Below are positions 29,070-43,951 of a DNA stretch of 64,000 bases, one piece after another. Made by a program: the position numbers and the translations under genes. Below the pieces are notes generated by a model that saw only the letters and a list, made by a program, of their open reading frames with translations, did no database searches and was not told the origin of the DNA. The first letter of the stretch is position 1. Every line of letters starts with the position of its first letter. This DNA is from Pseudomonas silesiensis (GTDB taxonomy: Bacteria; Pseudomonadota; Gammaproteobacteria; Pseudomonadales; Pseudomonadaceae): NCBI RefSeq assembly GCF_001661075.1, contig NZ_CP014870.1:2624501-2688500 (forward strand), in the 5' to 3' direction.

Positions 29070-29385
29070 GTCGCTACCCCGTCTGGATTGGGTGATGCGG
29101 ATAAGGTCTGTTATCGCTATGCACTGTGATCAGGTCAAGGCCTGATCACGACGCGACTGTCGAAAGTAGTGGCGACAGGCCGTAAACCGTCGCGCAGTGG
29201 TTTGAAATGCGCGTTCGATCAGCATAGCTGAAACGTTTTACCAGATCGCTGCACCGATTGTCATGACCCACGGTCTTGATCGTTTAAAACCCCTGTGCCT
29301 GCATTCAGGTAGCAATCTTTTACCCCGGGAACACACAACGGCCAACGCTGCGGGTAAACTTCATGCTCTTTGCGAAGGAGTTCAT
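29070..29385. promoter_or_regulatory. divergent promoter region between gapN and the DyP peroxidase gene
   Basis: A 316-base gap between divergent starts. I see no repeat, RNA gene or clear operator. An AAGGAG ribosome-binding site for the peroxidase lies at its right edge. Confidence 0.4.
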
Positions 29386-30273
29386 ATGAGTCACTACCAG
29401 CCGGGCATTCTCGCCACCCCCGTTCCACCTCAAGCCCGTCATATGTTCTTTGCACTGGAGTCTGCCGCTGCACTCCCGGCCGCGCTCGACAACTTGATGC
29501 GGCTGGTGGACGGTCAGTCGGCGGTGGTCGGTTTCGGTGAATCCCTGGTCAAGGCACTTCATGGCCAGATCGAGGGCCTGCGTCCCTTCCCGGCGTTGAC
29601 CGGAGTAGGGGTCGACAACCCGTCGACCCAGCACGCGCTGTGGTGCTGGTTGCATGGCGTCGACCGTGGCGAATTGCTCAACCGCAGCAACGCCATCGAA
29701 GCGGCCCTGGCACCGGCCTTGCGCCTGGTGCAGATGAACGAAACCTTCCGCCACCTCACCGGCCACGACCTGACCGGTTACGAAGACGGCACTGAAAATC
29801 CCCACGACGAAGCCGCCGTGGCCGCCGCGCTGGTGGGTGAGGGCGCTGAAGGCCAGGTGGGTGGCAGCTTCGCCGCGATTCAGCAGTGGCAGCACGACCT
29901 GAAAGGCTTCAATGCGATGCCGTCCCATGAGAAGGACAACATCATGGGCCGGCGCTTGAGCGACAACGAAGAACTCGACGACGCGCCGATCTCCGCCCAC
30001 GTCAAACGCACCGCCCAGGAAAGCTTCGCCCCCGAAGCGTTCGTGGTACGCCGTTCGATGCCGTGGATCGAAGGCGACCGCGCCGGCCTGATGTTCCTTG
30101 CCTTCGGTTTCTCCCTCGATGCGTTCGAAGCCCAACTGCGGCGCATGAGCGGTCTGGAAGATGGCATCACCGATGGTCTGTACCGCATGAGTCGGCCGAT
30201 CACGGGCGGCTACTACTGGTGCCCGCCGCTCAAGGACGGTCGTCTGGACCTGCGTGCATTGCGCGTCGGCTGA
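29386..30273 (+). CDS. DyP-type heme peroxidase
   Basis: A 295-residue dye-decolorising peroxidase. The GxxDG motif is GYEDGTEN with Asp134. The proximal heme His is probably H205 (ISAHVKRTAQ), and a distal Arg lies in VVRRSMPW. The length suits the YfeX-like class without a Tat signal, so the enzyme should be cytoplasmic. AAGGAG is seven bases before the start. Confidence 0.92.
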   Translation: MSHYQPGILATPVPPQARHMFFALESAAALPAALDNLMRLVDGQSAVVGFGESLVKALHGQIEGLRPFPALTGVGVDNPSTQHALWCWLHGVDRGELLNRSNAIEAALAPALRLVQMNETFRHLTGHDLTGYEDGTENPHDEAAVAAALVGEGAEGQVGGSFAAIQQWQHDLKGFNAMPSHEKDNIMGRRLSDNEELDDAPISAHVKRTAQESFAPEAFVVRRSMPWIEGDRAGLMFLAFGFSLDAFEAQLRRMSGLEDGITDGLYRMSRPITGGYYWCPPLKDGRLDLRALRVG

Positions 30274-30294: not shown

Positions 30295-30387
30295 CCTGTA
30301 GGAGCCGGCTTGCCGGCGAAGGCGGTGGCACATTCAGTAGAGGTGTTGACTGACAGACCGCCTTCGCCAGCAAGCCGGCTCCTACAC
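30295..30387. repeat. BIME: inverted REP pair
   Basis: A forward REP (30295-30325) and an inverted REP (30357-30387) flank a 31-base linker just after the peroxidase gene. Confidence 0.9.
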
Positions 30388-30533: not shown

Positions 30534-31286
30534 ATGACCGATAACGTTCTATCCCTGAGCAGTGTTCCGCTCCACACCCAACTTCGGGATGTACTGCGCG
30601 CCCGCATTCTCGACGGCGAATACCCGCAAGACAGCCAGATGCCCTCCGAAAGCGAGCTTGGCGCGCTGTTCAAGGTCAGCCGCATCACCGTGCGCCAGGC
30701 CCTGGGAGACCTGCAGAAAGAAGGGCTGATCTTCAAGATTCACGGCAAGGGCACTTTCGTCGCCAAACCGAAAACCTTTCAGAACGTCAGCACCTTGCAA
30801 GGCCTGGCCGAGTCCATGACCGGTCGCGGCTACGAGGTGATCAACCGCCTGCGCAGCTTCAAATTCATACCGGCCGACAAACTCGTCGCCGAGCGGTTGC
30901 AGGTCGCCGAAGGTGAGACCGTGGCGCAGATCAAGCGGGTGCGGCTGATCAATCGCGAACCGATCTCGCTGGAAATCACCTACCTGCCCAAGGCCATCGG
31001 CGAGCGGCTGGAGAAGGCTGATCTGGTCACCCGCGACATTTTCCTGATCCTCGAGAACGACTGCGGCCTGGCCCTCGGTCACGCCGACCTGGCCATCGAC
31101 GCCGTACTGGCCGACAGCGACCTGACCCAGGCGCTGAACGTCGAAGCCGGCTCGCCGATCATGCGCATCGAGCGCCTGACCCACGACGCCAGCGGCCAGC
31201 CCCTGGACTTCGAACACCTTTACTACCGCGGCGATGCCTTCCAGTACCGCCTGCGGATCGACCGGCAAAAAGGGGATCAGGCATGA
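30534..31286 (+). CDS. GntR family regulator, HutC subfamily
   Basis: A 250-residue regulator. The N-terminal winged HTH spans about residues 10-78 (PSESELGALFKVSRITVRQALGDLQKEG), with the wing ending KGTFVA. A C-terminal UTRA effector domain (about 95-240) is of the HutC type. It overlaps the flavoprotein start by four bases (ATGA), so it is the first gene of the redox/transport operon and probably controls it. ATG at 30534 is preferred over the GTG at 30525. Confidence 0.88.
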   Translation: MTDNVLSLSSVPLHTQLRDVLRARILDGEYPQDSQMPSESELGALFKVSRITVRQALGDLQKEGLIFKIHGKGTFVAKPKTFQNVSTLQGLAESMTGRGYEVINRLRSFKFIPADKLVAERLQVAEGETVAQIKRVRLINREPISLEITYLPKAIGERLEKADLVTRDIFLILENDCGLALGHADLAIDAVLADSDLTQALNVEAGSPIMRIERLTHDASGQPLDFEHLYYRGDAFQYRLRIDRQKGDQA

Positions 31287-33028
31287 CCCACAGCGCTATG
31301 AACAGAAGTACGCTTGAGCAGGAATACGACATCGTCGTGATCGGCGGCGGCACGGCCGGGCCCATGGCGGCGATCAAGGCCAAGGAGCGCAACCGCGACC
31401 TGCGGGTGCTGCTGATCGACAAGGCCAACGTCAAGCGCAGCGGCGCGATCAGCATGGGCATGGACGGCCTGAACAACGCGATCATTCCCGGTCACTCGAC
31501 GCCGGAGCAGTACACCAAGGAAATCACCATCGCCAATGACGGCATCGTCAATCAGGCGGCGGTCTATGCCTACGCGACCCACAGCTTCGAGACCATCGAG
31601 CAACTGGACCGCTGGGGCGTGAAATTCGAGAAGGACGAAACCGGCGACTACGCGGTGAAGAAGGTCCACCACATGGGCGCCTACGTGCTACCGATGCCGG
31701 AAGGGCATGACATCAAGAAAGTCCTGTACCGCCAATTGAAACGGGCACGGGTCAGCATCACCAATCGCGTCGTGTGCACGCGCTTGCTGACCGACGAAGA
31801 AGGCGCGGTCAACGGCCTGATGGGCTTCGATTGTCGCACCGCCGATTTCCACGTGATCAAGGCCAAGGCCGTGATCCTCGCGTGCGGTGCCGCTGGGCGT
31901 TTGGGCCTGCCGTCCTCCGGCTACCTGATGGGCACCTATGAAAACCCGACCAACGCCGGCGACGGCTACGCCATGGCTTATCACGCAGGTGCGGAACTGG
32001 CGAACCTGGAATGCTTCCAGATCAACCCGCTGATCAAGGACTACAACGGCCCGGCCTGTGCCTACGTCACCGGCCCATTGGGCGGCTACACCGCCAACAA
32101 CAAGGGCGAACGCTTCATCGAGTGCGACTACTGGAGCGGGCAGATGATGTGGGAGTTTCATCAGGAACTCGAAAGCGGCAACGGCCCGGTGTTCCTCAAG
32201 CTCGATCACCTGGCCGAGGAAACCATCCAGAACATCGAAGAGATCCTGCACAGCAACGAACGTCCGAGTCGCGGCCAGTTCCACGCCAACCGCGGCACCG
32301 ATTACCGCACGCAAATGGTCGAGATGCACATCTCGGAAATCGGTTTTTGCAGCGGACACTCGGCGTCGGGGGTGTGGGTCAACGAGAAGGCCGAGACGTC
32401 GGTCAAGGGTTTGTATTCGGCAGGGGACATGGCGGCAGTGCCGCATAACTACATGCTCGGTGCATTCACTTATGGCTGGTTTGCCGGCAACAACGCGGCG
32501 GATTTTGTCGCCGGGCGTGAGTTTTCAGCGGTCGATGCGCGGCAGATCGAAACGGAAAAGGCACGGGTCTACGCGCCACTGGATCGCGAACACGGTCTGC
32601 CGCCGGCCCAGGTCGAGTACAAGCTGCGGCGTTTTGTGAACGACTACCTGCAGCCGCCGAAAGTGACCAGGAAGATGCAGATCGGTCTGCAACGCTTCAG
32701 TGACATCCAGCGCGATCTCGATCAGATCAAGGCCCATAACGCCCACGAGCTGATGCGTGCCATGGAAGTCAGCATGATCCGCGACTGCGCCGAAATGGCC
32801 GCCCGCGCTTCGCTGTTTCGCGCCGAGAGTCGCTGGGGGCTTTACCACTATCGAGTCGATCACCCGCAACGCAACGACAGCGACTGGTTCTGCCATTGCC
32901 ACCTGAAGAAGGATGAAAACGGGCTGATGAGCAGTTTCAAGAAAGCCGTCGAGCCTTACATCATCCCGCTGGATGCCGAGGAAATGCAGGCCTACGACCG
33001 GCTGCGAGTCGGTGCCTTTGCTGCTTGA
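31283..33028 (+). CDS. AprA-like / fumarate reductase-type flavoprotein
   Basis: A 581-residue FAD enzyme. The dinucleotide-binding motif is VVIGGGTAGPMAA (residues 18-30), and a KANVKRSGAISMG segment (48-59) resembles AprA of adenylylsulfate reductase more than SdhA. The FAD domain closes with YSAGDMAAVPHNYMLGAFTYGWFAGNNAADFVAG, and the C-terminal helical domain is also AprA/SdhA-like. The small ferredoxin gene directly downstream would supply the electron partner, as AprB does. Genuine dissimilatory APS reduction is not expected in Pseudomonas, so the substrate is open. Confidence 0.8.
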   Translation: MTHSAMNRSTLEQEYDIVVIGGGTAGPMAAIKAKERNRDLRVLLIDKANVKRSGAISMGMDGLNNAIIPGHSTPEQYTKEITIANDGIVNQAAVYAYATHSFETIEQLDRWGVKFEKDETGDYAVKKVHHMGAYVLPMPEGHDIKKVLYRQLKRARVSITNRVVCTRLLTDEEGAVNGLMGFDCRTADFHVIKAKAVILACGAAGRLGLPSSGYLMGTYENPTNAGDGYAMAYHAGAELANLECFQINPLIKDYNGPACAYVTGPLGGYTANNKGERFIECDYWSGQMMWEFHQELESGNGPVFLKLDHLAEETIQNIEEILHSNERPSRGQFHANRGTDYRTQMVEMHISEIGFCSGHSASGVWVNEKAETSVKGLYSAGDMAAVPHNYMLGAFTYGWFAGNNAADFVAGREFSAVDARQIETEKARVYAPLDREHGLPPAQVEYKLRRFVNDYLQPPKVTRKMQIGLQRFSDIQRDLDQIKAHNAHELMRAMEVSMIRDCAEMAARASLFRAESRWGLYHYRVDHPQRNDSDWFCHCHLKKDENGLMSSFKKAVEPYIIPLDAEEMQAYDRLRVGAFAA

Positions 33029-33053
33029 GCCTCACCACAAGAGAGACCGTGAA

Positions 33054-33299
33054 ATGGCCTATCAACCCCAGGAAATCTTCTTTCGCTCGAACGCGCCGGT
33101 CACGGTCGATGAGGACCTGTGCATCGCCCATAAAGGCTGCACCGTGTGCGTCGATGTTTGCCCGATGGACCTGCTGGCGATCAACCCGGCCACGCAAAAG
33201 GCCTACATGGCCTTCGATGAATGCTGGTACTGCATGCCCTGTGAAAAGGACTGCCCGACCGGGGCGGTGAAAGTGGAAATACCGTATTTGTTGCGCTGA
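33054..33299 (+). CDS. AprB-like 2x[4Fe-4S] ferredoxin
   Basis: An 81-residue protein with two cysteine clusters: C-x5-C-x2-C-x3-CP (CIAHKGCTVCVDVCP) and C-x2-C-x2-C-x3-CP (CWYCMPCEKDCP). This matches the ferredoxin core of AprB but without its C-terminal wrap-around tail. It lies 25 bases after the flavoprotein and probably passes electrons to or from its FAD. Confidence 0.88.
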   Translation: MAYQPQEIFFRSNAPVTVDEDLCIAHKGCTVCVDVCPMDLLAINPATQKAYMAFDECWYCMPCEKDCPTGAVKVEIPYLLR

Positions 33300-33331
33300 C
33301 TCACAGGACGCCATCGTCGGAATGCCGCCCA

Positions 33332-33420
33332 GACCAAGCCCGGCTCCCACAGGTTTCTTTGGTGTCTGCAAAATTTTGGATTCAGCACAAATCACTGCGG
33401 GCTTGCCCGCGAAGAGGCCG
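33332..33420. repeat. degenerate REP pair
   Basis: AAGCCCGGCTCCCACAGG and GCGGGCTTGCCCGCGAAG are diverged REP halves between the ferredoxin and the binding-protein gene. Confidence 0.6.
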
Positions 33421-33544
33421 CCACAGACAATAAAAAAGCCATCCGGCAACCACCGGACGCCTGTTTCAAAACACCCCTCGTTTCCCACCACGCCCTGATC
33501 GTGGCGGAGACGAACATCCTATAAATGATTCGAGGGGATTCACC

Positions 33545-34963
33545 ATGTCTTTGCCAATATTGCTGCGTACAGCGTTAGCCGGTCTGGTACTGGCTTCATT
33601 CACCCTGTCGGCTTGCGCCGAAACCATCCGCATCGCCATCGGCACCCAGGACACCACCATCAACTGCGCCGCCGGCGGTCTGTTGATTCGCGAGTTGGGT
33701 CTGCTGGACAAATACCTGCCCCACGACGGCCCCTACAAGGACGCCAGGTACGAGGTGCAGTGGAAGAACTTCACCAGCGGGGCGCCCCTGACCAACGAGA
33801 TGGTTGCCGGCAAACTCGATTTCGGCGCCATGGCTGATTTCCCGGGTTCGTTCAACGGTGTGGCATTCGAAACCGCGGGCAAGCACAGCCTGTTCATCAG
33901 CGTTCTGTCGGGCAGCATCAAGGGCAGCGGCAACGGCATCGTGGTGCCGAGCGCTTCGCCGGTGCAGTCATTGGCCGAGCTCAAGGGCAAGACCATTTCC
34001 GTGCCTTTTGCCTCCACCGCCCATGGCATGTTGCTGCGAGCCGTGGCCGCCCAGGGTTGGGACCCGCTCAAGGACGTGAACATCATCGCCCAGCCGCCTG
34101 AGGTCGCAGGCTCGGCGTTGCAGGCCGGGAAGATCGACGCCCACGCCGACTTTGTGCCCTTCGCCGAACTGTTCCCGAGCCGTGGTTTTGCACGCAAGAT
34201 CTATGACGGTTCCCAGGCGAATGCCCCGACGTTCCATGGTGCATTGGTCGATCAGGCGTACGCGAAAAAGTACCCGGAAATTGTCGTCGCCTACCTGCGC
34301 GCCAGTATCGAAGCCAACCAGTTGCTGACGGCCGAGCCCGAGAAGTACAGCGAGTTGATCGCCAAGGTCACCGGGGTCGATGCCGAGGTCAACTACCTGT
34401 TCTACGGTCCGCTCGGGGTGCAGACCCGCGACCTGAGCTGGAAGCCGGAATACCGCCAGGCCGTCGGCACCGCCATCGATACCCTCAAGCTGCTGAAGAA
34501 GGCTGACCGCGGTCTCGATCTGAATACCTTCATCGACGATCAATACATCCGCGCCGCCTTCAAGGCCTCGAACCTGGATTACAGCGCACAGCTTGCCAAT
34601 TACAAGCCGACGCCGCTGACAGCGGTGGATGCGTTGAGCGGCAAGGCCATCACCGACTTCAGCCATGTGGCCGAAATCTGGGTGCGCGGGGAGGCGAAAG
34701 TCCGTCAATACGCCTCGGCGGAATCGGCGTTCACCGCGCTGGCGAGCTTGAAGCAGGAGGGCAAGAACATCCGTGCGGTGTATGCCCAGGCGAGTGACAG
34801 CGGGATCAAGTTGCTGGCGGATCAGGCGTGGTTTGCCAGTGATGCGCAAGGGCATCTGAGCGCCTTCCTGCTCAAAGGCCAGGCCCAGCAGTTCGCTACG
34901 GCCCAGGGCGGCAAGGTGTTCGATTTTACCGATGCCACGACCCAGGCTGTTGCCGTGCGCTGA
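33545..34963 (+). CDS. ABC substrate-binding protein with NosL-like C-terminal domain
   Basis: A 472-residue exported protein. The N-terminus has a signal with a possible lipobox (LSAC, Cys24). Residues about 26-340 form a NitT/TauT/SsuA-type periplasmic binding domain (IRIAIGTQDTTINCAAGG..., DFGAMADFPGS). The last ~98 residues have the pattern of NosL: a conserved-length alpha/beta unit ending ...HLSAFLLKGQAQQFATAQGGKVFDF. Ordinary members of this binding family are about 330 residues, so the extension is unusual. AGGGG seven bases upstream supports the start. It feeds the permease and ATPase encoded next. Confidence 0.8.
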   Translation: MSLPILLRTALAGLVLASFTLSACAETIRIAIGTQDTTINCAAGGLLIRELGLLDKYLPHDGPYKDARYEVQWKNFTSGAPLTNEMVAGKLDFGAMADFPGSFNGVAFETAGKHSLFISVLSGSIKGSGNGIVVPSASPVQSLAELKGKTISVPFASTAHGMLLRAVAAQGWDPLKDVNIIAQPPEVAGSALQAGKIDAHADFVPFAELFPSRGFARKIYDGSQANAPTFHGALVDQAYAKKYPEIVVAYLRASIEANQLLTAEPEKYSELIAKVTGVDAEVNYLFYGPLGVQTRDLSWKPEYRQAVGTAIDTLKLLKKADRGLDLNTFIDDQYIRAAFKASNLDYSAQLANYKPTPLTAVDALSGKAITDFSHVAEIWVRGEAKVRQYASAESAFTALASLKQEGKNIRAVYAQASDSGIKLLADQAWFASDAQGHLSAFLLKGQAQQFATAQGGKVFDFTDATTQAVAVR

Positions 34964-34976
34964 CCCCGCGGCCCTC

Positions 34977-35206
34977 TGTAGGAGCCGGCTTGCCGGCGAA
35001 TGCGTACTGGCATTCAACATTGTTGCTGGCTGGTCCGGCGCCTTCGCCGGCAAGCCGGGCTCCTACAGGGGAGCGACGTTGTATGAAGATATTGAGTTCA
35101 CCAACGATCAACTGTGGGAGCGGGCTTGCCCGCGAATGCGGTCTGGCATTCAACATTGATGCCGGCTGGTCCGACGCCTTCGCCGGCAAGCCGGGCTCCT
35201 ACAGGG
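34977..35206. repeat. duplicated BIME unit
   Basis: Two ~94-bp BIMEs (34977-35070 and 35113-35206) have nearly the same linker (CTGGCATTCAACATTG...GGCTGGTCCG), so one arose from the other. They separate the binding-protein and permease genes. Confidence 0.9.
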
Positions 35207-35228
35207 ACCAGGGTTGAGAGGAATAATT

Positions 35229-36011
35229 GTGTACCGATCTTATGCACGCTGGATCCCCAGATCAGCCTCGCTGTTGCTCTGCCTCCTGTTCTGGCAACTC
35301 GCCGCCAGTGGCCACTGGAACCTTGGCCTGGTGACCTTCGCCAACGTTCCGACGCCGCTGGCGGTGGTCGAAGCCGCCTTCGGTCTCGGCGATTCCGGCA
35401 AGCTCGGCCAGCACCTGAGCAGCAGTCTCGGCCGGGTGTTCGCCGGTTACCTTGCGGCGCTGGTCATCGGCGTCGCCCTCGGCCTGGCCATCGGTCGCTC
35501 GAAATGGGCGGAAGACTTGCTGCTGCCCCCCCTGGAAGTCCTGCGCCCGATTCCGGCGGTGGCCTGGATTCCACTGGCGATCCTGATGTTCCCGTCGTCA
35601 GAGCTGTCGATGGTGTTCATCACCTTCACCGGCGCGCTGTTCCCGATCCTGCTCAATACCGTGCACGGCGTCGAAGGCGTCGACCCGCGGCTGATCGCCT
35701 CGGCGAAAAGCCTCGGGGCAGGGCGGCGGGCGATTCTTTTGGAAGTGATCCTGCCGGGCGCCGCACCGAGCATCATCACTGGCCTCGCCATCGGCATGGG
35801 CACTTCGTGGTTCTGCCTGGTGACCGCGGAAATGATCTCCGGCCAGTACGGCATCGGTTATTACACCTGGGAGTCCTACACCATCCAGAACTACGCCGAC
35901 ATCGTGGTCGGCATGTTGCTGATCGGTGTACTCGGGATGGGCAGCAGTCTGCTGATCAAACGGCTGGGCGGGTTGTTCACGCCCTGGCACCGACCACGAG
36001 GAAAAGCCTGA
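35229..36011 (+). CDS. ABC transporter permease, NitT/TauT type
   Basis: A 260-residue BPD_transp_1 permease with about six membrane segments. The EAA loop reads ASAKSLGAGRRAILLEVILPGAAPSIITGLAIGMG. The GTG at 35229 is chosen because AGAGGA lies six bases upstream. It overlaps the ATPase gene by one base (TGATG). It probably forms the membrane channel for the substrate captured by the NosL-tailed binding protein. Confidence 0.88.
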   Translation: MYRSYARWIPRSASLLLCLLFWQLAASGHWNLGLVTFANVPTPLAVVEAAFGLGDSGKLGQHLSSSLGRVFAGYLAALVIGVALGLAIGRSKWAEDLLLPPLEVLRPIPAVAWIPLAILMFPSSELSMVFITFTGALFPILLNTVHGVEGVDPRLIASAKSLGAGRRAILLEVILPGAAPSIITGLAIGMGTSWFCLVTAEMISGQYGIGYYTWESYTIQNYADIVVGMLLIGVLGMGSSLLIKRLGGLFTPWHRPRGKA

Positions 36012-36859
36012 TGAGCGCGGTGCAAACCCCTGAAGGGCGGATCGACATCCGCCAGTTGTCCATTGTCCTCGGCGAAGACAAACACGCCTTCGAAGCCGTG
36101 CAAGGTCTGGACTGCCAGATCGAGCCGGGGCAGTTCGTGTGCATTCTCGGACCGTCCGGTTGCGGCAAATCCACCTTGCTCGGCGCGCTGGCCGGGCATC
36201 TGCAAAGCCATACCGGCACCCTGAACGTCGACGGCGCGCCAGTCTCGGGCCCATCGCCCCAGCGCGGCATGGTCTTTCAGCACCACACGCTGTTCCCCTG
36301 GCGCACGGTGCGCGACAACGTCGCCTTCGGCCTGAAAATGCGTGGCATCGGCAAAGCCGAACGACACCGGGCCGCCGACGAAATCCTCGCTCTGGTGGGC
36401 CTCGAAGGTTTTGCCGAACGCTGGCCCGATCAGCTGTCCGGCGGCATGCAGCAGCGGGTGGAAATCGCCCGGGTGCTGATCAATCGTCCTCGGCTGTTGC
36501 TGATGGACGAGCCGTTCGGCGCCCTCGATGCCCTGACCCGGTTGAACATGCAGGAACTGCTGCTGGACATCTGGACGCGCATCCGCACCACGGTGGTGTT
36601 CGTCACCCATGACATCGACGAAGCGCTGTTCCTCGCCGATCGGCTGCTGGTGATGAGTTCGCGCCCTGGCCGGATCATCGAAGACCTGCGCCTCGACTTC
36701 CCCCGGCCACGCACCACCGAACGGGTGACGAGCCACGCGTTCTCCCGCTTGAAGCGTCATTGCCTCGAGTTGCTGCGTCACGAAGACGGTCGGCAGCTGC
36801 CGCGCCTGAACCCTCTCGGACTTCCCCCTGAAAATAAACTGCCGCGGTTTGCCCTATGA
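36011..36859 (+). CDS. ABC transporter ATPase, NitT/TauT type
   Basis: A 282-residue ATPase with Walker A GPSGCGKST (47-55), signature LSGGMQQR, Walker B LLLMDEPFGALDA and the switch His in FVTHDIDEA. The family is TauB/SsuB-like. It overlaps the HEAT-repeat gene start by four bases (ATGA), so expression of the two is coupled. Confidence 0.92.
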   Translation: MSAVQTPEGRIDIRQLSIVLGEDKHAFEAVQGLDCQIEPGQFVCILGPSGCGKSTLLGALAGHLQSHTGTLNVDGAPVSGPSPQRGMVFQHHTLFPWRTVRDNVAFGLKMRGIGKAERHRAADEILALVGLEGFAERWPDQLSGGMQQRVEIARVLINRPRLLLMDEPFGALDALTRLNMQELLLDIWTRIRTTVVFVTHDIDEALFLADRLLVMSSRPGRIIEDLRLDFPRPRTTERVTSHAFSRLKRHCLELLRHEDGRQLPRLNPLGLPPENKLPRFAL

Positions 36860-37818
36860 CCTCTCTATTCGATGTAACCGATAACGATGACATTCTCGCC
36901 CTGCAACCGCGCCTGACCGATGAAGATCCCGGCGTGCGGCGGATAGCCCTGATCGAACTGGCGGATCTCGAGGAACCGGATGGCTTGCTGTGGCTGGTCG
37001 ACCGGTTGACGCAAGACCCGACCGAAGAGGTCCGCGCCGAAGCGGCACGGCTGCTGGAAGCCTGGGAGGACGAGCCCGTGGTCGAAGCACTGTGCCAGGC
37101 ATTGACCGATCCCGCTCAGGCGGTGCAGGCCGCTGCCGCGCAAAGCCTCAGCCTGCTCAAGAGCGAAGCGGCGGGCCGGGTGATTCTGCCGTGGACCGGG
37201 CATGCCGACATCAGCGTACGCATTGCCGCGTTCAGGGCCTTGCGCGAGTTGCGGTTTCCCGCTGCTGCCCAAGCGGCTGTGGAAGCGCTGAATGATGAAG
37301 ACGCCAGCGTTCGCCGCGAAGCCGTCGGCGTACTCGGCTGGCTCAAGCAGCTCGATGCCTTGCCGGCGCTGGCCCGATTGGCCAGTGACGATCCGGACAC
37401 CGAAGTGCGCCGCGCCGCCACCGGGGCCTTGGGCCTGGCCTGCGATGCACTGGTGCTGCCGGCCCTGCGCCAGGCCCTGCAGGACCAGGCCTGGCAAGTG
37501 CGCGAAGAGGCCGCCACCACCCTGGGCAAGGTCGGACATGCCGACGCCGCGCCGGCACTGGTCGACGCCCTGGGCGACGATTACTGGCAAGTGCGTCTGC
37601 GCGCCACCCGCAGCCTCGGCCGCTTGCGCTACGTCCCGGCTCTGGACGCGCTGATCGAAACCCTTGGCCACCGCATCAGCAACCTGCGCAAGGAAGCCGC
37701 GCTGGCCCTCGGCGAGTTGAACGACAAAGGCGCCATCGCGCCCTTGCAGGCGGCACAGGACGACGGCGATCCGGAAGTGCGCAAGGCCGTGCGCATTGCG
37801 TTGAGTCAACTGCAATGA
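36856..37818 (+). CDS. HEAT-repeat protein
   Basis: A 320-residue protein made almost entirely of about nine PBS-lyase-type HEAT repeats of ~31 residues with the pattern D.d..VR..A...LG. Such solenoids act as scaffolds or chaperones, for example in phycobilin attachment and metalloenzyme assembly. No catalytic motif is present. It overlaps both neighbours by four bases, so it is integral to the operon. A maturation or assembly role for the flavoprotein/ferredoxin pair is inferred from context. Confidence 0.85.
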   Translation: MTSLFDVTDNDDILALQPRLTDEDPGVRRIALIELADLEEPDGLLWLVDRLTQDPTEEVRAEAARLLEAWEDEPVVEALCQALTDPAQAVQAAAAQSLSLLKSEAAGRVILPWTGHADISVRIAAFRALRELRFPAAAQAAVEALNDEDASVRREAVGVLGWLKQLDALPALARLASDDPDTEVRRAATGALGLACDALVLPALRQALQDQAWQVREEAATTLGKVGHADAAPALVDALGDDYWQVRLRATRSLGRLRYVPALDALIETLGHRISNLRKEAALALGELNDKGAIAPLQAAQDDGDPEVRKAVRIALSQLQ

Positions 37819-38090
37819 ACCCGGTTGCGATTGGCAATTCCCGAAGCCGGCAGCAACTGCGCCTGAACTGGCCGGATGGTCGTGAGCAAGTGTTGGATCA
37901 TGCCGAGTTGCGCCGGCAATGCCCGTGTTCGCAGTGCCGGGCGTTTCGGTTGCAAGGGCTGGCAGTGAAAGTCGACGGGCGCATCCGTGTGATTGAGCTC
38001 AATCAACAGGGCTACGGCCTGCAACTGATCTTCAGTGACGGCCACGAACGCGGCATTTACCCCTGGCCCTACCTCTCAGGACTCACCTGA
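37815..38090 (+). CDS. DUF971 / GBBH-like N-terminal domain protein
   Basis: A 91-residue protein with the C-x-C-x2-C motif CPCSQC near residues 36-41 and a later SDGHERGIYPWPYL. Together these form the Cys3-His zinc site known from the N-terminal domain of gamma-butyrobetaine hydroxylase. Stand-alone members occur near Fe-S assembly genes. It is the last gene of the operon, followed by a BIME. Confidence 0.85.
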   Translation: MNPVAIGNSRSRQQLRLNWPDGREQVLDHAELRRQCPCSQCRAFRLQGLAVKVDGRIRVIELNQQGYGLQLIFSDGHERGIYPWPYLSGLT

Positions 38091-38092
38091 AA

Positions 38093-38169
38093 CCCGTAGG
38101 AGCGAGGCTTGCCCGCGAAGGCGGTGTGTCAGGTGCGCAGCCTTCGCGGGCAAGCCTCGCTCCTACGGG
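38093..38169. repeat. BIME with near-perfect inverted REPs
   Basis: CCCGTAGGAGCGAGGCTTGC... and its exact complement form about 29-bp arms with a short loop, between the DUF971 gene and lexA2. It could also act as a transcript end. Confidence 0.92.
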
Positions 38170-38214: not shown

Positions 38215-38230
38215 GAGTACAAATGTACTC
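38215..38230. promoter_or_regulatory. LexA2 operator
   Basis: GAGTAC-AAAT-GTACTC is a perfect palindrome containing GTAC-N4-GTAC, close to the GTAC-N4-GTGC motif I recall for LexA2 of P. putida. It overlaps the first ATG of lexA2, so bound repressor would block its own transcript. Confidence 0.8.
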
Positions 38231-38840
38231 CATGACGACTCTCACTCCCCGCCGTACCGCCATCCTGACCTTTATCCGCGAGCGAATCGCCGAGCACGGC
38301 CAGTCCCCGAGCCTCGCTGAAATCAGCGAGGCGTTCGGCTTCGCCTCCCGCAGCGTGGCGCGCAAGCATGTGCTGGCGCTGACCGAAGCCGGTTTCATCG
38401 AGGTCAATGCGCATCAGGCCCGGGGCATTCGTTTGCCCGGACAACCGGCCCGGCCCGAGCTGCTGGACATTGCGGTGCTCGGTCGGGTGGCGGCGGGTGC
38501 GCCGATCGGTGCCGATGCCGAGGTGCACAGCCGCTTGCTGCTCGACCCGTCGATGTTCTCCCGGGTGCCGGACTACATGCTGCGGGTCCGGGGCGACTCG
38601 ATGATCGAGGACGGCATTCTCGACGGTGACCTGGTGGGTGTGCATCGCAATCCGGAGGCCGTCAACGGCCAGATCGTCGTGGCCCGGCTGGACGGGGAAG
38701 TCACCATCAAGCGTTTCGAGCGGGTCGGCGATGCCGTGCGCCTGTTGCCGCGCAACCCGGCGTATCAGCCGATCATCGTTCGCGCGGACCAGGACCTGGC
38801 CATCGAAGGGGTGTTCTGCGGTCTGGTGAGGCAAGGGTGA
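38223..38840 (+). CDS. lexA2: LexA2-type SOS repressor
   Basis: A 205-residue LexA paralogue. The N-terminal winged HTH is at about 10-70, the self-cleavage site Ala91-Gly92 lies in VAAGAP, the nucleophile is Ser126 (VRGDSM) and the base Lys163 (VTIKRF). It is the first gene of the lexA2-imuA-imuB-dnaE2 operon and should autorepress it until RecA-stimulated cleavage. The ATG at 38223 lies inside the operator and has GAAAGAG upstream; the ATG at 38232 is the alternative. Its stop overlaps the imuA start. Confidence 0.93.
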   Translation: MYSMTTLTPRRTAILTFIRERIAEHGQSPSLAEISEAFGFASRSVARKHVLALTEAGFIEVNAHQARGIRLPGQPARPELLDIAVLGRVAAGAPIGADAEVHSRLLLDPSMFSRVPDYMLRVRGDSMIEDGILDGDLVGVHRNPEAVNGQIVVARLDGEVTIKRFERVGDAVRLLPRNPAYQPIIVRADQDLAIEGVFCGLVRQG

Positions 38841-39457
38841 TGGGCGCCGTCGTTGCGTTGGATACGCTGTTCAATGGCGGCCAGGTCTGGCGCGGGCGAC
38901 CTGCGCCACCGGCCGCCAGCCCGCAACCCACCGGGCATGCCGCGCTGGATGCGGCGTTGCCCACGGGCGGCTGGCCGGAAGCGGCGTTGACGGAGATCCT
39001 GCTGGCCGGGCAGGGCGTCGGCGAGTTGCGACTGGTGTGGCCAGCGCTGGCGCGGTTGTCGGCGGCGGGTGAACGCATCGTGCTGGTGGCGCCGCCCTAC
39101 GTGCCGTATCCCCAGGCGTGGCAGAACGCCGGGGTCGATCTGCGCCAGTTGTCGATCATCCAGGCCAGCGAGCGCGATGCCCTGTGGGCGGCGGAACAAT
39201 GTTTGCGTTCGGGCAGTTGCGGCGCGGTGTTGTGCTGGCCGCACAAGGCCGATGACCGCACCTTGCGCCGCTTGCAGGTGGCGGCGGAAACCGGCTCGAC
39301 CCTGGCATTCGCCTACCGCTCGATCCATGAAGCCATCAACCCTTCGCCCGCGGCCCTGCGCATCGCCATCGACGCCAGGCCCGCGCAGTTGCGTGTGCTC
39401 AAGTGCCGGGGCGGGTTGGCGCGTTCGGCACCGATTGCCTTCCCGGTGGGGCATTGA
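38840..39457 (+). CDS. imuA: translesion DNA synthesis-associated protein ImuA
   Basis: A 205-residue RecA/SulA-like protein that pairs with ImuB and DnaE2 in damage-induced mutagenesis. It begins MMGAVVALDTLFNGGQVWRG, and PTGGWPEAALTEIL is the degenerate P-loop region, so ATP binding is doubtful. It overlaps the lexA2 stop (TGATG) and is seven bases from imuB. Confidence 0.92.
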   Translation: MGAVVALDTLFNGGQVWRGRPAPPAASPQPTGHAALDAALPTGGWPEAALTEILLAGQGVGELRLVWPALARLSAAGERIVLVAPPYVPYPQAWQNAGVDLRQLSIIQASERDALWAAEQCLRSGSCGAVLCWPHKADDRTLRRLQVAAETGSTLAFAYRSIHEAINPSPAALRIAIDARPAQLRVLKCRGGLARSAPIAFPVGH

Positions 39458-39464
39458 GGTTGCC

Positions 39465-40880
39465 ATGCGCTGGGTGTGCATTCTCTTCCCGCAATTGGCG
39501 CTGGACGCGGTCCTGCGTCAGCGCGCCGATCCCGACGAGCCGCTGGCGCTGCTGACCGGCCCGGCCCAGCGTCGGGTGTTGCAGGCGGTCAACGCTTCGG
39601 CGCGGGCACTGGGCTTGCGTCCGGGGCAGTCGATGACGGCTGCGCAGGCCCTGAGCAAGGGCTTCGTCACGGCGGAATATGACGCTGCCGAGATCGAGCA
39701 CTGGCAGCAGTTTCTCGCCGCCTGGGCCTATCGGTTCAGCTCCCAGGTCAGCGTGCATTACCCGCGGGCGGTGGTGTTTGAAATCGAATCCAGCCTGGGC
39801 CTGTTCGGACCCTGGCCGCACTTCGAAGCACGCTTGCGGACCGAACTCGGCGAGCTGGGGTTTCGCCACCGCATCGTTGCCGCGCCCAACCCGGTGGCGG
39901 CGCGGGTATTGGCCAATGCCTATGACGGTCTGGTGGTGCCCGACGATCAAGCCTTGCAGTATCACCTGGGGCAGTTGCCCATTGACCGCATCGGGTTGGA
40001 GGCGGGTGTCGCCACGGCGTTATCGCGCATGGGGTTGCGCACCCTGAGCCAGGTGCAGGCGTTGCCCCGGCAGAGTCTGGCCCGGCGTTTCGAGGCCCAG
40101 GTGCTCAAGCACCTGGATGCCTTGCTGGGTACCCGTCGGCTGGCGCTGGCGTTCTACTTGCCGCCGGACCGCTTCGATGTGCGCATCGAGCTCAATTTCG
40201 ATGTGCAGTCCCATCAGGCGCTGCTGTTTCCGTTACGCCGCCTGACCGGCGATCTTGCTGCTTTCCTGTGTGGCCGGGACAGCGGCGTGCAGCGCTTTGA
40301 CCTGCACCTGGAGCACGCCGGGTTGCCGGACAGCGTGATCAAGGTCGGCCTGCTCAGCGCCGAGCGCGATCCGGCCATGCTCTTCGAACTGGCCCGGGGC
40401 CGGCTGGAACAGGTCCAGGTCGAGGCCCCGGTGCGCGGTTTTCGCTTGCGCGCCGAAGACTTGCCGGCCTTCGTTCCCCAGTACCAGGAACTGTTCGACG
40501 ACCGCCCGCAGCAGTCCTTGCCCTGGGAGCAACTGCGCGAACGCCTGCGCGCCCGGCTCGGGGATGACGCGGTGCAAGGCTTGCGATTCCAGGCCGATCA
40601 CCGGCCGGAGTGCGCGTGGCAGGCCAGTGTCGACAGCCAGCCCTGTGCGGCGTTGTCGGACGTGCAGCGCCCGGGCTGGTTGCTGACCGACCCCATGGCA
40701 GTCCACGAAAGCTCGACGCGCATCCTCATGGGGCCGGAACGCATCGAGTCCGGTTGGTGGGACGGCGCCGACGTGCGCCGGGATTACTACCTGATCGAAA
40801 CCCGTTCCGGCCAGCAGGGCTGGGCCTGGCGGGCGGTGGGTGAGGACGGCCCGTTGTGGCTGCAGGGCTGGTTCGCATGA
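39465..40880 (+). CDS. imuB: Y-family polymerase-like protein ImuB
   Basis: A 471-residue protein with Y-family polymerase architecture. The acidic residues that bind catalytic metals in true DinB are not in place (start reads [19 protein letters not shown]), as is known for ImuB, which acts as a bridge between DnaE2, ImuA and the beta clamp. The ATGA overlap with dnaE2 indicates coupled translation. Confidence 0.92.
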
Positions 40881-43800
40881 CCATCGAATATGCAGAGCTG
40901 CACTGCCTGTCGAACTTCAGTTTCCAGCGCGGAGCCTCCAGTGCCCTTGAGCTCTTTCAGCGGGCGAAAAAGCAGGGCTATCAAGCCCTGGCAATCACCG
41001 ACGAGTGCACCCTGTCAGGCATTGTCCGCGCCTGGCAAGCAGCCAGATCCGTGGAACTGCCGCTGATCATCGGCAACGAAATCCGCATTGAGAACGGTCC
41101 GAAACTGGTTCTGCTGGTCGAAAACCTCGAGGGCTACCAGACCCTGTGCCGACTGATTACCCGAGCCCGACGCCGCACGCAAAAAGGCCAGTATCGGGTG
41201 CTGCGGGAAGACTTCAGCGAACCGCTGCCGGGACTGCTGGTGTTGTGGGTGCCGGACGCGGTCGATGACGTTGAGCCCGGTCGCTGGCTGAAACAGACCT
41301 TCGCCGAACGGCTGTGGCTGGCGGTCCAGTTGCATCGCGGTCAGGACGATAGCCGCCGGCTGAACCGGCTGCTGACGCTGGCAAGTGAGCTGGGCATCCC
41401 GGCTGTGGCCAGCGGCGATGTACATATGCACGCGCGCGGGCGGCGCGCCTTGCAGGACACCATGACCGCGATCCGCCATCACCTGCCGGTGGCCGAGGCC
41501 GGCTTGCGCCTGCACCCCAATGGCGAGCGCCATTTGCGCAGCCTCGAGGCCTTGGGCGATCTGTATCCGCAAGCATTGCTCGACGAAACGCTGAACATCG
41601 CCCGGCGCTGCACGTTCGACCTCGGCCAGTTGCGTTATCAGTACCCTCGGGAGCTGGTGCCCGAGGGGCACACGGCCACCTCCTGGCTGCGGGTGCTGAC
41701 GGAACAGGGCATCGCGTGGCGCTGGCCACAAGGCCAGGCCAAGGTGCTGCTGCAGATCGACAAGGAACTGCAGCTGATCGCCGAGCTGGGTTACGAAAGC
41801 TATTTCCTCACGGTTCACGACATTGTGCGTTTCGCCCGCGAGCAGAAGATTCTTTGCCAGGGCCGTGGGTCGGCCGCCAACTCGGCGGTGTGCTTTGCCC
41901 TGGGGATCACCGAAATCGATCCGGATCGCACCACGCTGTTGTTTGAACGCTTTCTCTCCAGGGAGCGCAACGAACCACCGGACATCGACGTCGATTTCGA
42001 ACACGAGCGGCGTGAAGAAGTCCTGCAGTACGTGTTCCGGCGCTATGGCCGAGCCCGCGCGGCGCTGACCGCGGTGGTCAGCACCTATCACTCGGCCGGC
42101 GCGGTGCGCGACGTGGCCAAGGCCTTGGGGTTGCCGCCGGACCAGGTCAATGCCCTGGCCGATTGCTACGGTCACTGGAGCGATGACACACCTCCCGTGG
42201 AGCGCCTGCGCGAAGGCGGTTTCGACCCCGACAGCCCGGTGTTGCGCCGGGTGCTGAGCCTGACCGGGCAGTTGATCGGCTTTCCCCGGCACCTGTCCCA
42301 GCACCCCGGCGGCTTCGTGATTTCCGAGCAGCCCCTGGACAGCCTGGTGCCGGTGGAAAACGCCGCCATGGCCGATCGCACCATCATCCAGTGGGACAAG
42401 GACGACCTGGACGCGGTCGGGCTGCTCAAAGTCGACATTCTGGCCCTCGGCATGCTCAGCGCGATTCGCCGCTGCTTTGATCTTTTGCGTCGGCACCGCC
42501 ACCTTGACCTGAGCCTGGCGACGATCCCGGCCGAGGATTCGCAGACCTACGACATGATCGGCCATGCGGACACCGTCGGCGTGTTCCAGATCGAGTCCCG
42601 GGCGCAGATGTCGATGCTGCCGAGGCTCAAGCCCCGGACCTTCTATGACCTGGTGATCGAGGTAGCGATCGTGCGGCCGGGGCCGATTCAGGGCGGCATG
42701 GTTCACCCTTATCTGCGGCGGCGAAACAAGGAAGAGCCCGAGACCTATCCCTCCCCGGAACTGGAAGCCGTGCTCAAACGCACCCTGGGCGTGCCACTGT
42801 TCCAGGAACAGGTAATGCAGATCGCTATCGTCGCCGCCGACTACAGCCCCGGCGAAGCCGATCAATTGCGCCGTTCCATGGCCGCCTGGAAGCGCCACGG
42901 CGGACTGGAGCCGCACAAGGATCGCCTGGCCGCCGGGATGAAGAAAAATGGCTATACGCCCGAGTTCGCGGCACTGATCTTCGAACAGATCAAAGGCTTT
43001 GGCAGCTACGGTTTCCCCGAGTCCCATGCCGCCAGTTTTGCCTTGCTGACCTACGCCAGTTGCTGGTTGAAATGCCACGAACCGGCGGCCTTCGCCTGTG
43101 CGCTGATCAACAGTTGGCCCATGGGTTTCTACAGCCCGGATCAGATTCTGCAGGACGCGCGCCGGCACCACTTGCAGATCCGCCCGGTGGACGTGCGGGC
43201 CAGCGACTGGGATTGCAGCCTGGAACCGATCACCGGTGCGCAGCCGGCGATTCGCATGGGATTGCGGATGATCAAGGGGTTTCGCGAGGAAGATGCCCGG
43301 CGTATCGAAGCGGCACGGTCAAAGGGGGTGTTCATCGATATCGCCGACCTTGGCGAACGGGCGCGACTCGATGCCCGTGCCCAGGAACAACTGGCCGATG
43401 CCGGGGCGCTGCGCGGGCTGGCCGGCGACCGGCATCGGGCGCGCTGGGAGGTGGCGGGGGTGCAGAAACAGCTCGGTTTGTTTGCCGGGCTGCCGCGCCA
43501 GGAGGAAGAGGCGGTGTCGTTGCCCAAACCCACCGTGGGCGAGGACCTGCTGGCCGATTACAGCAGTGTCGGCACCACCCTCGGGCCGCATCCGCTGGCG
43601 TTGCTGCGGGGTGAATTGAAAGCCCGGCGTTGTCGCAGTTCGAAAGAGCTCATGGATGTCGAGCACGGCCGACCGGTCAGCGTCGCCGGACTGGTAACCG
43701 GCCGACAACGCCCGGGCACCGCCAGTGGCGTGACCTTCGTCACCCTGGAAGACGAGTTCGGCAACGTCAATGTGGTGGTCTGGCGCGACCTGGCCGACCG

Positions 43801-43951
43801 GCAGCGACAGGTGCTGGTCGGCTCGCAGTTGCTCAAGGTCGACGGGCGCTGGGAAAAGGAAGGCGAGGTGCGCCACCTGATTGCCGGACGCTTGAGCGAC
43901 CTGAGCCCGTTGCTCGACGGCATCAGCGTGCGCAGCCGGGATTTCCGTTGA
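40877..43951 (+). CDS. dnaE2: error-prone DNA polymerase DnaE2 (ImuC)
   Basis: A 1024-residue C-family polymerase. The PHP domain opens with [22 protein letters not shown]. The catalytic aspartates lie in [20 protein letters not shown], and palm/fingers motifs continue through HPGGFVIS and [20 protein letters not shown]-terminal OB-fold ([34 protein letters not shown]) ends it. It is shorter than replicative DnaE and lacks the clamp-loader-binding tail, as expected. It performs SOS-induced lesion bypass with ImuA and ImuB. Confidence 0.95.

Follow-up and report, generated by a model that had tools for sequence, protein, structure and literature searches.

We analysed a 64,000-nt stretch of DNA (the window) from the 6.8-Mb, single-contig genome of Pseudomonas silesiensis and, within it, a cluster of eight plus-strand genes spanning positions 30534–38090, as defined by the gene calls of the window and by scans with domain and family profiles (Table 1). 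An initial annotation, made from the sequence alone, had described these genes as an operon-like block running in one direction with overlaps of a few bases. All eight genes are present on the plus strand, and the overlaps measure 4 bp (regulator/flavoprotein), 1 bp (permease/ATPase), 4 bp (ATPase/HEAT) and 4 bp (HEAT/DUF971). The block is less tight than that description implied, with gaps of 25 bp before the ferredoxin gene, 245 bp before the binding-protein gene and 250 bp before the permease gene, the last containing two repetitive extragenic palindromic (REP)-like palindromes. Given these three gaps and the two palindromes, transcription of the cluster may be divided among two or three units. 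A simple promoter scan of the cluster found no promoter, and terminator-like sites within it occurred at chance level. REP-like repeats of the GTAGGAGCCGGCTTGCCGGCGAA type are found in the intergenic gaps at 30297–30386, 34976–35206 (the pair just described) and 38093–38169, the last with perfect 30-nt inverted arms at 38093/38140.

Table 1. Genes and features of the cluster, with positions in the window and profile scores (aa, amino acids; ABC, ATP-binding cassette; FAD, flavin adenine dinucleotide).
Feature	Position	Strand	Profile evidence
GntR/HutC-type regulator, UTRA ligand-binding domain, 250 aa	30534..31286	+	PF07702 133 bits, PF00392 66 bits
AprA-like FAD flavoprotein, NF006131/PRK08275, 581 aa	31283..33028	+	NF006131 1138 bits, cut-off 587
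Two-[4Fe-4S]-type ferredoxin, AprB-like, 81 aa	33054..33299	+	PF12838 39 bits
NitT/TauT-type substrate-binding protein, NosL-like C-terminal domain, 472 aa	33545..34963	+	PF13379 46 bits
Two REP-like palindromic repeats, between binding-protein and permease genes	34976..35206	.	
ABC permease, 265 aa	35214..36011	+	PF00528 86 bits
ABC ATPase, TauB/NrtCD-like, 282 aa	36011..36859	+	PF00005 118 bits
HEAT-repeat protein, 320 aa	36856..37818	+	PF13646 181 bits
DUF971 / GBBH-like_N protein, 91 aa	37815..38090	+	PF06155 73 bits, gathering cut-off 22.8 (passed)

Co-localisation of these genes was scored in 111 loci, mostly from Pseudomonas, that remained from a sample of 123 after 12 with less than 7 kb on either side were dropped. 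Presence was called within 9 kb using bit thresholds of our own choosing. The flavoprotein gene was accompanied by the ferredoxin gene in all 111 loci, by the HEAT gene in 110, the ABC ATPase gene in 102, the DUF971 gene in 101, the binding-protein and permease genes in 99 each, and a relative of the regulator gene in 86. The single locus without a separate HEAT gene, from Tsukamurella, has the HEAT region fused to the flavoprotein. One DUF971 protein (L138, 35 bits) falls narrowly under the threshold, and three loci (L067, L069 and L072) were counted with an ATPase that lies on the other strand and is not joined by the binding protein and permease of the cluster. Since most loci are from Pseudomonas, the counts are not independent. 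The co-localisation exceeds chance, and the set is found across Pseudomonadota, Cyanobacteriota and Actinomycetota; outside Pseudomonas the gene order is reshuffled and the set is still together. The initial annotation had named scattering of the genes in other genomes as evidence against a common system, and the neighbourhood analysis instead found co-localisation in 110–111 of 111 loci. DUF971 keeps its place as a member of the set, being in the window and in most loci, without being universal. Twelve of the 111 loci have no binding protein within 9 kb, for example the P. putida locus L069, and the importer is a separable accessory. At the Nostoc edaphicum locus (L144 9013–14167), five genes encoding two HAD hydrolases, a methyltransferase, a GNAT protein and a VOC protein separate the flavoprotein from the ferredoxin, and such separation is not unique to Nostoc.

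The flavoprotein family NF006131 scored over its cut-off in 21 of 398 Pseudomonadota genomes. All 21 reached at least 1058 bits and the next best match 218, so the family is sharply bounded and patchy. A tblastn search of a plasmid collection, in which some records are chromosome-sized, returned 51 records at E<=1e-100 with full-length matches of 57–82% identity. The proteobacterial genera among them include Paraburkholderia, Caballeronia, Cupriavidus, Acinetobacter, rhizobia, Methylobacterium, Methylocystis and Acidithiobacillus, and the search also returned Pseudanabaena, Nostoc, Leptolyngbya, Nonomuraea and Tsukamurella. The closest relatives of the flavoprotein are 96–99% identical and from Pseudomonas; in a homology search, the matches listed were 94–97% identical, all from Pseudomonas save one labelled Bacillus.

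The flavoprotein carries FAD_binding_2 and Succ_DH_flav_C domains and is a member of NF006131/PRK08275 (1137.9 bits). Its nearest solved structure is the alpha chain of the 3'-phosphoadenosine 5'-phosphosulfate (PAPS) reductase of Methanothermococcus thermolithotrophicus (8a8o, E 1.5e-62), followed by AprA of A. fulgidus. This result sustains the AprA-like assignment in the initial annotation. A predicted model of the flavoprotein was poor (mean pLDDT, the predicted local distance difference test, 43). We aligned the flavoprotein with 24 relatives hand-picked for diversity and compared its pocket with six reference proteins scoring 1076–1097 bits with the aprA model. The residue numbers and catalytic roles used here for AprA (N74, W234, R265, H398) and for succinate dehydrogenase (SDH; R286, H242, H45) are those we take to be correct. 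The SGA of the FAD loop and the equivalents of AprA N74, K267/D268 and H398 are kept in all 25 family members. In the same 25 proteins, W234 is replaced by tyrosine (Y219) and R265 by leucine (L250). There are 196 invariant positions in the alignment, and three stretches are invariant in all 25 and new relative to AprA: VH[HR].G.YVLPMP, QINP and DYWSGQM. Together, these features suggest an enzyme of the AprA type that has a substrate of its own, under strong constraint.

Two established identities were rejected. The flavoprotein scores 193.3 bits with the aprA model (cut-off 641.75) and the ferredoxin 35.9 bits with the aprB model (cut-off 135.65); these curated cut-offs, together with the Trp to Tyr and Arg to Leu replacements in the pocket, rule out a true adenosine 5'-phosphosulfate (APS) or PAPS reductase. 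Likewise, a true fumarate reductase or SDH is ruled out by a score of 169.9 bits with the sdhA/frdA subfamily (curated cut-off 567.3) and by the replacement of Arg286 with Gln287 and His242 with Asn248. Both Q287 and N248 are invariant in the 25 proteins, and the position aligned to H45 is a glycine. Because these positions, whose catalytic roles in SDH we take as given, are replaced, the name "fumarate reductase" that the databases and NCBIfam attach to NF006131 is very probably wrong. Work on the PAPS reductase reports that specificity is probably switched by a small number of substitutions in its substrate loop, with the catalytic residues kept (PMC10322725).

The ferredoxin retains eight cysteines in two motifs in all 25 proteins aligned (the window protein and 24 relatives), and the PAPS reductase 8a8o system is among its solved matches. 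Of 116 loci, 10 have a relative of ferredoxin-NADP reductase near the cluster and six have FdxA. One of the ten loci is from Methylobacterium and nine are from the same phylum but another class; in six loci of one genus, the reductase gene is directly beside the flavoprotein gene. This linkage favours an electron direction from NADPH to the substrate, and thus NADPH-driven substrate reduction, in those lineages. On plasmid pTcM1 of Acidithiobacillus caldus (L004 10102–14035), the cluster is followed by fdxA and a gene for a 1153-aa protein whose sole Pfam match is Pyr_redox_2 (residues 372–576). The cluster ferredoxin of P. putida KT2440 may, on our assumption, be PP_0206. The "ferredoxin" PP_0206 is upregulated 7.5- to 8.5-fold by zinc (PMC6066579).

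Two observations connect the HEAT protein with the enzyme. In Tsukamurella (L146), a single 893-aa protein matches the flavoprotein at residues 15–569 and HEAT at residues 685–858. Additionally, the flavoprotein-HEAT fusion model NF010374 matches the window flavoprotein with its first part and the window HEAT protein with its later part; the HEAT protein scores 89 bits, below the whole-protein cut-off of 1196. These fusions indicate that HEAT goes with the enzyme and not with the importer. At the four cyanobacterial loci that we read, a gene annotated as an Mrp-type ATPase follows HEAT and no DUF971 gene is annotated. The Mrp-type ATPase of Pseudanabaena (L143) contains DUF59 (FeS_assembly_P) and no DUF971 domain. 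In the [4Fe-4S] scaffold HCF101, DUF59, a P-loop/Mrp-type NTPase and DUF971 are present in one chain (PMC5890173), and in Synechocystis a HEAT protein, IaiH, acts together with IscA (PMC7058544). The Mrp ATPase taking its slot in cyanobacteria supports a cluster-carrier role for DUF971, and HEAT and DUF971 are plausibly helpers of iron-sulfur (Fe-S) assembly. This agrees with the earlier proposal that the last two proteins assist assembly of the flavin/Fe-S enzyme, made plausible by the cyanobacterial slot and the HCF101 architecture. The motif behind the zinc site attributed to DUF971 is not conserved. This motif, CxCxxC (CPCSQC in the window), is missing in six proteins (L131, L138, L147, L148, L149 and L151, four of them from rhizobia) of the 17 that aligned, from the window protein and 24 relatives tried, and the Cys motif is therefore not required.

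The solved relatives of the binding protein nearest by sequence are SsuA (2x26) and TauA (6ssy), and four solved chains were matched by sequence in all, each named as a binder of sulfonate, taurine or nitrate/alkanesulfonate (SsuA). Scores with the family models TIGR01728 (SsuA; 126 bits, cut-off 163.5) and TIGR01729 (TauA; 86.5 bits, cut-off 304.25) are both below cut-off, as is that of the ATPase with the taurine ATPase model (264 bits, cut-off 357). A predicted model of moderate quality (pLDDT 62.7) gave TauA/SsuA as top Foldseek matches, and the fold matches comprise SsuA, TauA, Thi5, ThiY-type, CmpA and NrtA chains. The ligand may be a small oxidised, sulfonate-like organosulfur anion. 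The initial annotation lacked the NosL-like domain at residues 375–468 of the binding protein, which may bind a metal or a further ligand. NosL (PF05573) scores 23.4 bits on the cut-out piece and 18.8 bits in the whole protein, relative to a gathering score of 24 that relatives from L145 (29.2 bits) and L150 (28.1 bits) pass. A NosL match at E<=1 was found in eight of nine relatives of the binding protein, L146 being the exception; the binding-protein alignment had 20 relatives, hand-picked for diversity, plus the window protein. NosL did not appear among the fold matches listed; almost all of these were confined to the first domain.

The assignment of the regulator as HutC-type stands, with matches to both GntR and UTRA. 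In Pseudanabaena (L143), this regulator is replaced by a LysR fusion protein, whose C-terminal part is a periplasmic-binding-protein domain related to the transporter protein of the cluster. This protein and a LysR regulator at L145 (L143 6637–8652 and L145 6379–8415) are each about 670 aa long and are 48% identical to each other, and three of the cyanobacterial relatives have a large LysR gene annotated next to them. A Crp/Fnr regulator is found at several rhizobial loci.

Sulfur genes near the cluster were assessed in 23 of the 51 tblastn records, picked for gene tables and spread; calls were made by eye, with a few annotations checked by profile, which upheld the YeiH and TauE families. Sulfur neighbours were present in 12 of the 23, against one such gene pair (hpsN/hpsO) in four 50-kb control stretches on four of these plasmids. 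Five have TauE and/or YeiH and seven more have sulfonate, organosulfur or sulfate genes, including SsuA-type proteins, NtaA/DmoA or LLM monooxygenases, a TauD-type dioxygenase, 3-mercaptopropionate dioxygenase and sulfate importers. YeiH-type and TauE genes together adjoin three of the four cyanobacterial clusters. Of the 21 genomes, six carry a YeiH-family gene no more than 10 kb away from the flavoprotein, at gaps of 1.1–7.8 kb (0.099 expected; 26 copies). The six genome matches (115–152 bits) and that of L143 (218.6 bits) are below the stricter TIGR00698 cut-off of 232.6, while PF03601 was well above cut-off in all six YeiH neighbours scanned, three from genomes and three cyanobacterial. 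In Salmonella, resistance to sulfite is reported to be driven mainly by YeiH (PMC12880088). The initial annotation had proposed import of a small anion or an organosulfur/nitrogen compound, followed by flavin/Fe-S redox chemistry. The importer and the AprA-like/ferredoxin pair support this outline, with the importer as an accessory; the neighbourhood makes a sulfur compound more likely. Genes for thiC-thiO-thiS-thiazole synthase lie upstream of two Rhizobium clusters (L148 4577–8349 and L169 4011–7782).

Our tentative reading, a real possibility that stays somewhat short of probable, is that the cluster is a sulfur-scavenging module in which import of a sulfonate-like compound is coupled to ferredoxin-driven, reductive release of sulfite, with HEAT and DUF971/Mrp aiding Fe-S assembly. 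The binding protein would capture a small oxidised organosulfur anion and the ABC transporter would import it. Electrons would pass from NADPH through ferredoxin-NADP reductase and a ferredoxin to the eight-cysteine ferredoxin subunit and on to the FAD of the AprA-like subunit. On the model of APS reductase, N5 of the reduced FAD would attack a sulfo group, borne by a good leaving group, at its sulfur atom; a FAD-sulfite adduct would form, the leaving group and then sulfite would be released, and the sulfite would be assimilated or exported. HEAT may serve as a subunit or maturation partner, DUF971 (in cyanobacteria the Mrp ATPase) may help load [4Fe-4S] clusters, and the regulator would sense the imported ligand. 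Since simple alkyl sulfonates have poor leaving groups, the substrate would more likely be a thiosulfonate, a sulfamate, a sulfate ester or an activated aryl sulfonate. A more specific proposal, which we regard as rather unlikely at present, is that the flavoprotein and ferredoxin form a new class of O2-independent, ferredoxin-driven desulfonating enzyme with an APS-reductase fold, generating a FAD N5-sulfite adduct from an imported S-, N-, O- or activated sulfonate.

Several observations weigh against this sulfur-scavenging reading. The arginine of AprA that presumably holds sulfite/APS is absent, and the chemistry may therefore differ. Similarity in the binding-protein fold leaves the ligand unfixed, with Thi5, ThiY-type and CmpA chains within 2 Z of SsuA/TauA. 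No annotated sulfur neighbour was found in 11 of the 23 loci, and none was noticed beside the cluster in the window itself. Five of the six YeiH-linked genomes belong to one genus, and in another genome of that genus YeiH is 176 kb away. Among the matches listed, TauE (PF01925) is more than 10 kb from the flavoprotein in all 21 genomes, and TauE/TSUP is a broad family. The four control stretches all lie on plasmids of the sulfur-positive group, and their gene content was assessed by eye.

The fold of the flavoprotein is that of the succinate dehydrogenase/fumarate reductase superfamily and the catalytic residues that we assume for AprA and SDH are both changed, which would fit an enzyme acting on the carbon or nitrogen part of an imported organosulfur compound, by C=C reduction or by alcohol or amine oxidation, while a separate monooxygenase or dioxygenase cleaves the C-S bond. 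LLM monooxygenases, NtaA/DmoA or TauD-type enzymes do adjoin some clusters. We nevertheless consider this division of labour somewhat improbable: there is no oxygenase among the genes tracked as conserved, the FAD surroundings are AprA-type and not SDH-type, and sulfite-type exporters lie beside cyanobacterial clusters that have no annotated oxygenase. It is distinctly doubtful that the imported anion is a non-sulfur compound (nitro, arsonate, cyanate-type or a thiamine precursor) that the reductase would detoxify or assimilate. Nitrate, bicarbonate and pyrimidines are further ligands of NitT/TauT-type binding proteins, and the nearness in fold of the Thi5, ThiY-type and CmpA chains, the thiC-thiO-thiS genes adjoining two Rhizobium clusters and the 11 loci lacking a sulfur neighbour all speak for such a ligand; they are opposed by the sulfur neighbours in several lineages and by the names of the four solved chains matched by sequence.

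We also weighed an electron-transfer pair like that of asfRABC in P. putida S-313, one that feeds a sulfonate monooxygenase and is not itself desulfonating. The asf genes, which encode a reductase/ferredoxin, a binding protein, an ABC transporter and a LysR regulator, are needed for aromatic desulfonation (PMC4267179), and LysR, flavoprotein, ferredoxin and binding protein occur together at three cyanobacterial loci. In contrast, the window regulator is GntR/UTRA and the invariant substrate-pocket residues suggest a catalytic site. AsfA/AsfB of C. metallidurans is Rmet_4334/5 (PMC2864759), and the replicon said to carry asfAB gave two matches of 29% and 26% identity and no close relative of the cluster flavoprotein. 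The region at 770–819 kb, where Asf is expected from gene numbering, holds a flavoprotein that is TcuA-like by eye with a TcuB-like neighbour. There are two further flavoproteins, one at 929 kb paired with a ferredoxin (L091) and one at 896 kb next to a 212-aa Fe-S-like protein (L090). None of these three candidates for Rmet_4334/5 is closely related to the cluster flavoprotein. An Asf-like role is thus, in our judgement, quite unlikely.

Directly upstream of the cluster is a Dyp-type peroxidase gene (29380–30273), which in the fetched flanks of 80 genome loci was found solely in close Pseudomonas relatives. Downstream (38229–43951) is an SOS mutagenesis cassette that starts with lexA and then imuA (NF033429, 227 bits), followed by a frame with only weak polymerase-IV matches, called imuB by position, and by an error-prone DnaE-type polymerase (NF004225, 1539 bits).

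If the sulfur-scavenging reading is true, the sulfur cycle would gain a reductive branch in common soil-dwelling and plant-associated bacteria, on rhizobial plasmids and in cyanobacteria, and the NCBIfam label "fumarate reductase" of NF006131 would be corrected. The well-known routes that release sulfonate sulfur aerobically depend on oxygenases. A desulfonating enzyme of the kind proposed would be a reductive counterpart to SsuD and TauD, which are oxygenases; an importer, a ligand sensor and Fe-S maturation proteins of its own would serve it, joined in some lineages by sulfite exporters. More than 95% of soil sulfur is organic (PMC4267179). The roles of the DUF971 and HEAT proteins would also become testable in one defined operon. 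In agreement with the initial annotation, we found no named pathway with this exact set and no published function for the orthologous cluster in a literature search whose scope excluded most subscription journals and all of bioRxiv; passages in PMC9694294, PMC8557817 and PMC10708946 had no bearing on its function.

Among known systems, AprBA and the assimilatory PAPS reductase of M. thermolithotrophicus (8a8o; PMC10322725) share with the cluster a FAD subunit, a small two-cluster ferredoxin, the FAD-proximal residues and two pocket residues. They differ at the positions equivalent to R265 and W234, which are replaced in all 25 cluster flavoproteins, and in the invariant loop. The cluster also adds an importer, HEAT and DUF971, and an ATP sulfurylase gene was seen in none of the 23 annotated loci. 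Fumarate reductase and SDH have the FAD_binding_2 and Succ_DH_flav_C domains in common with the flavoprotein but have R286, H242 and H45 where it has Q, N and G, and no gene for a membrane or heme subunit is present in the window cluster. SsuABC and TauABC use the same importer type and include the nearest relatives of the binding protein, yet their partners are the oxygenases SsuD and TauD, not a flavin/Fe-S enzyme, and the cluster adds a NosL-like domain. By its published description, asfRABC likewise combines a flavoprotein/reductase, a ferredoxin, a binding protein and an ABC transporter (PMC4267179), with the LysR regulator AsfR in place of GntR/UTRA and with HEAT and DUF971 as additions of the window cluster. 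Lastly, HCF101, Mrp and IaiH compare with the cluster in that DUF971 or the Mrp ATPase, depending on the lineage, takes the place following HEAT; the cluster proteins differ in being tied to one operon, with a putative role in Fe-S assembly.

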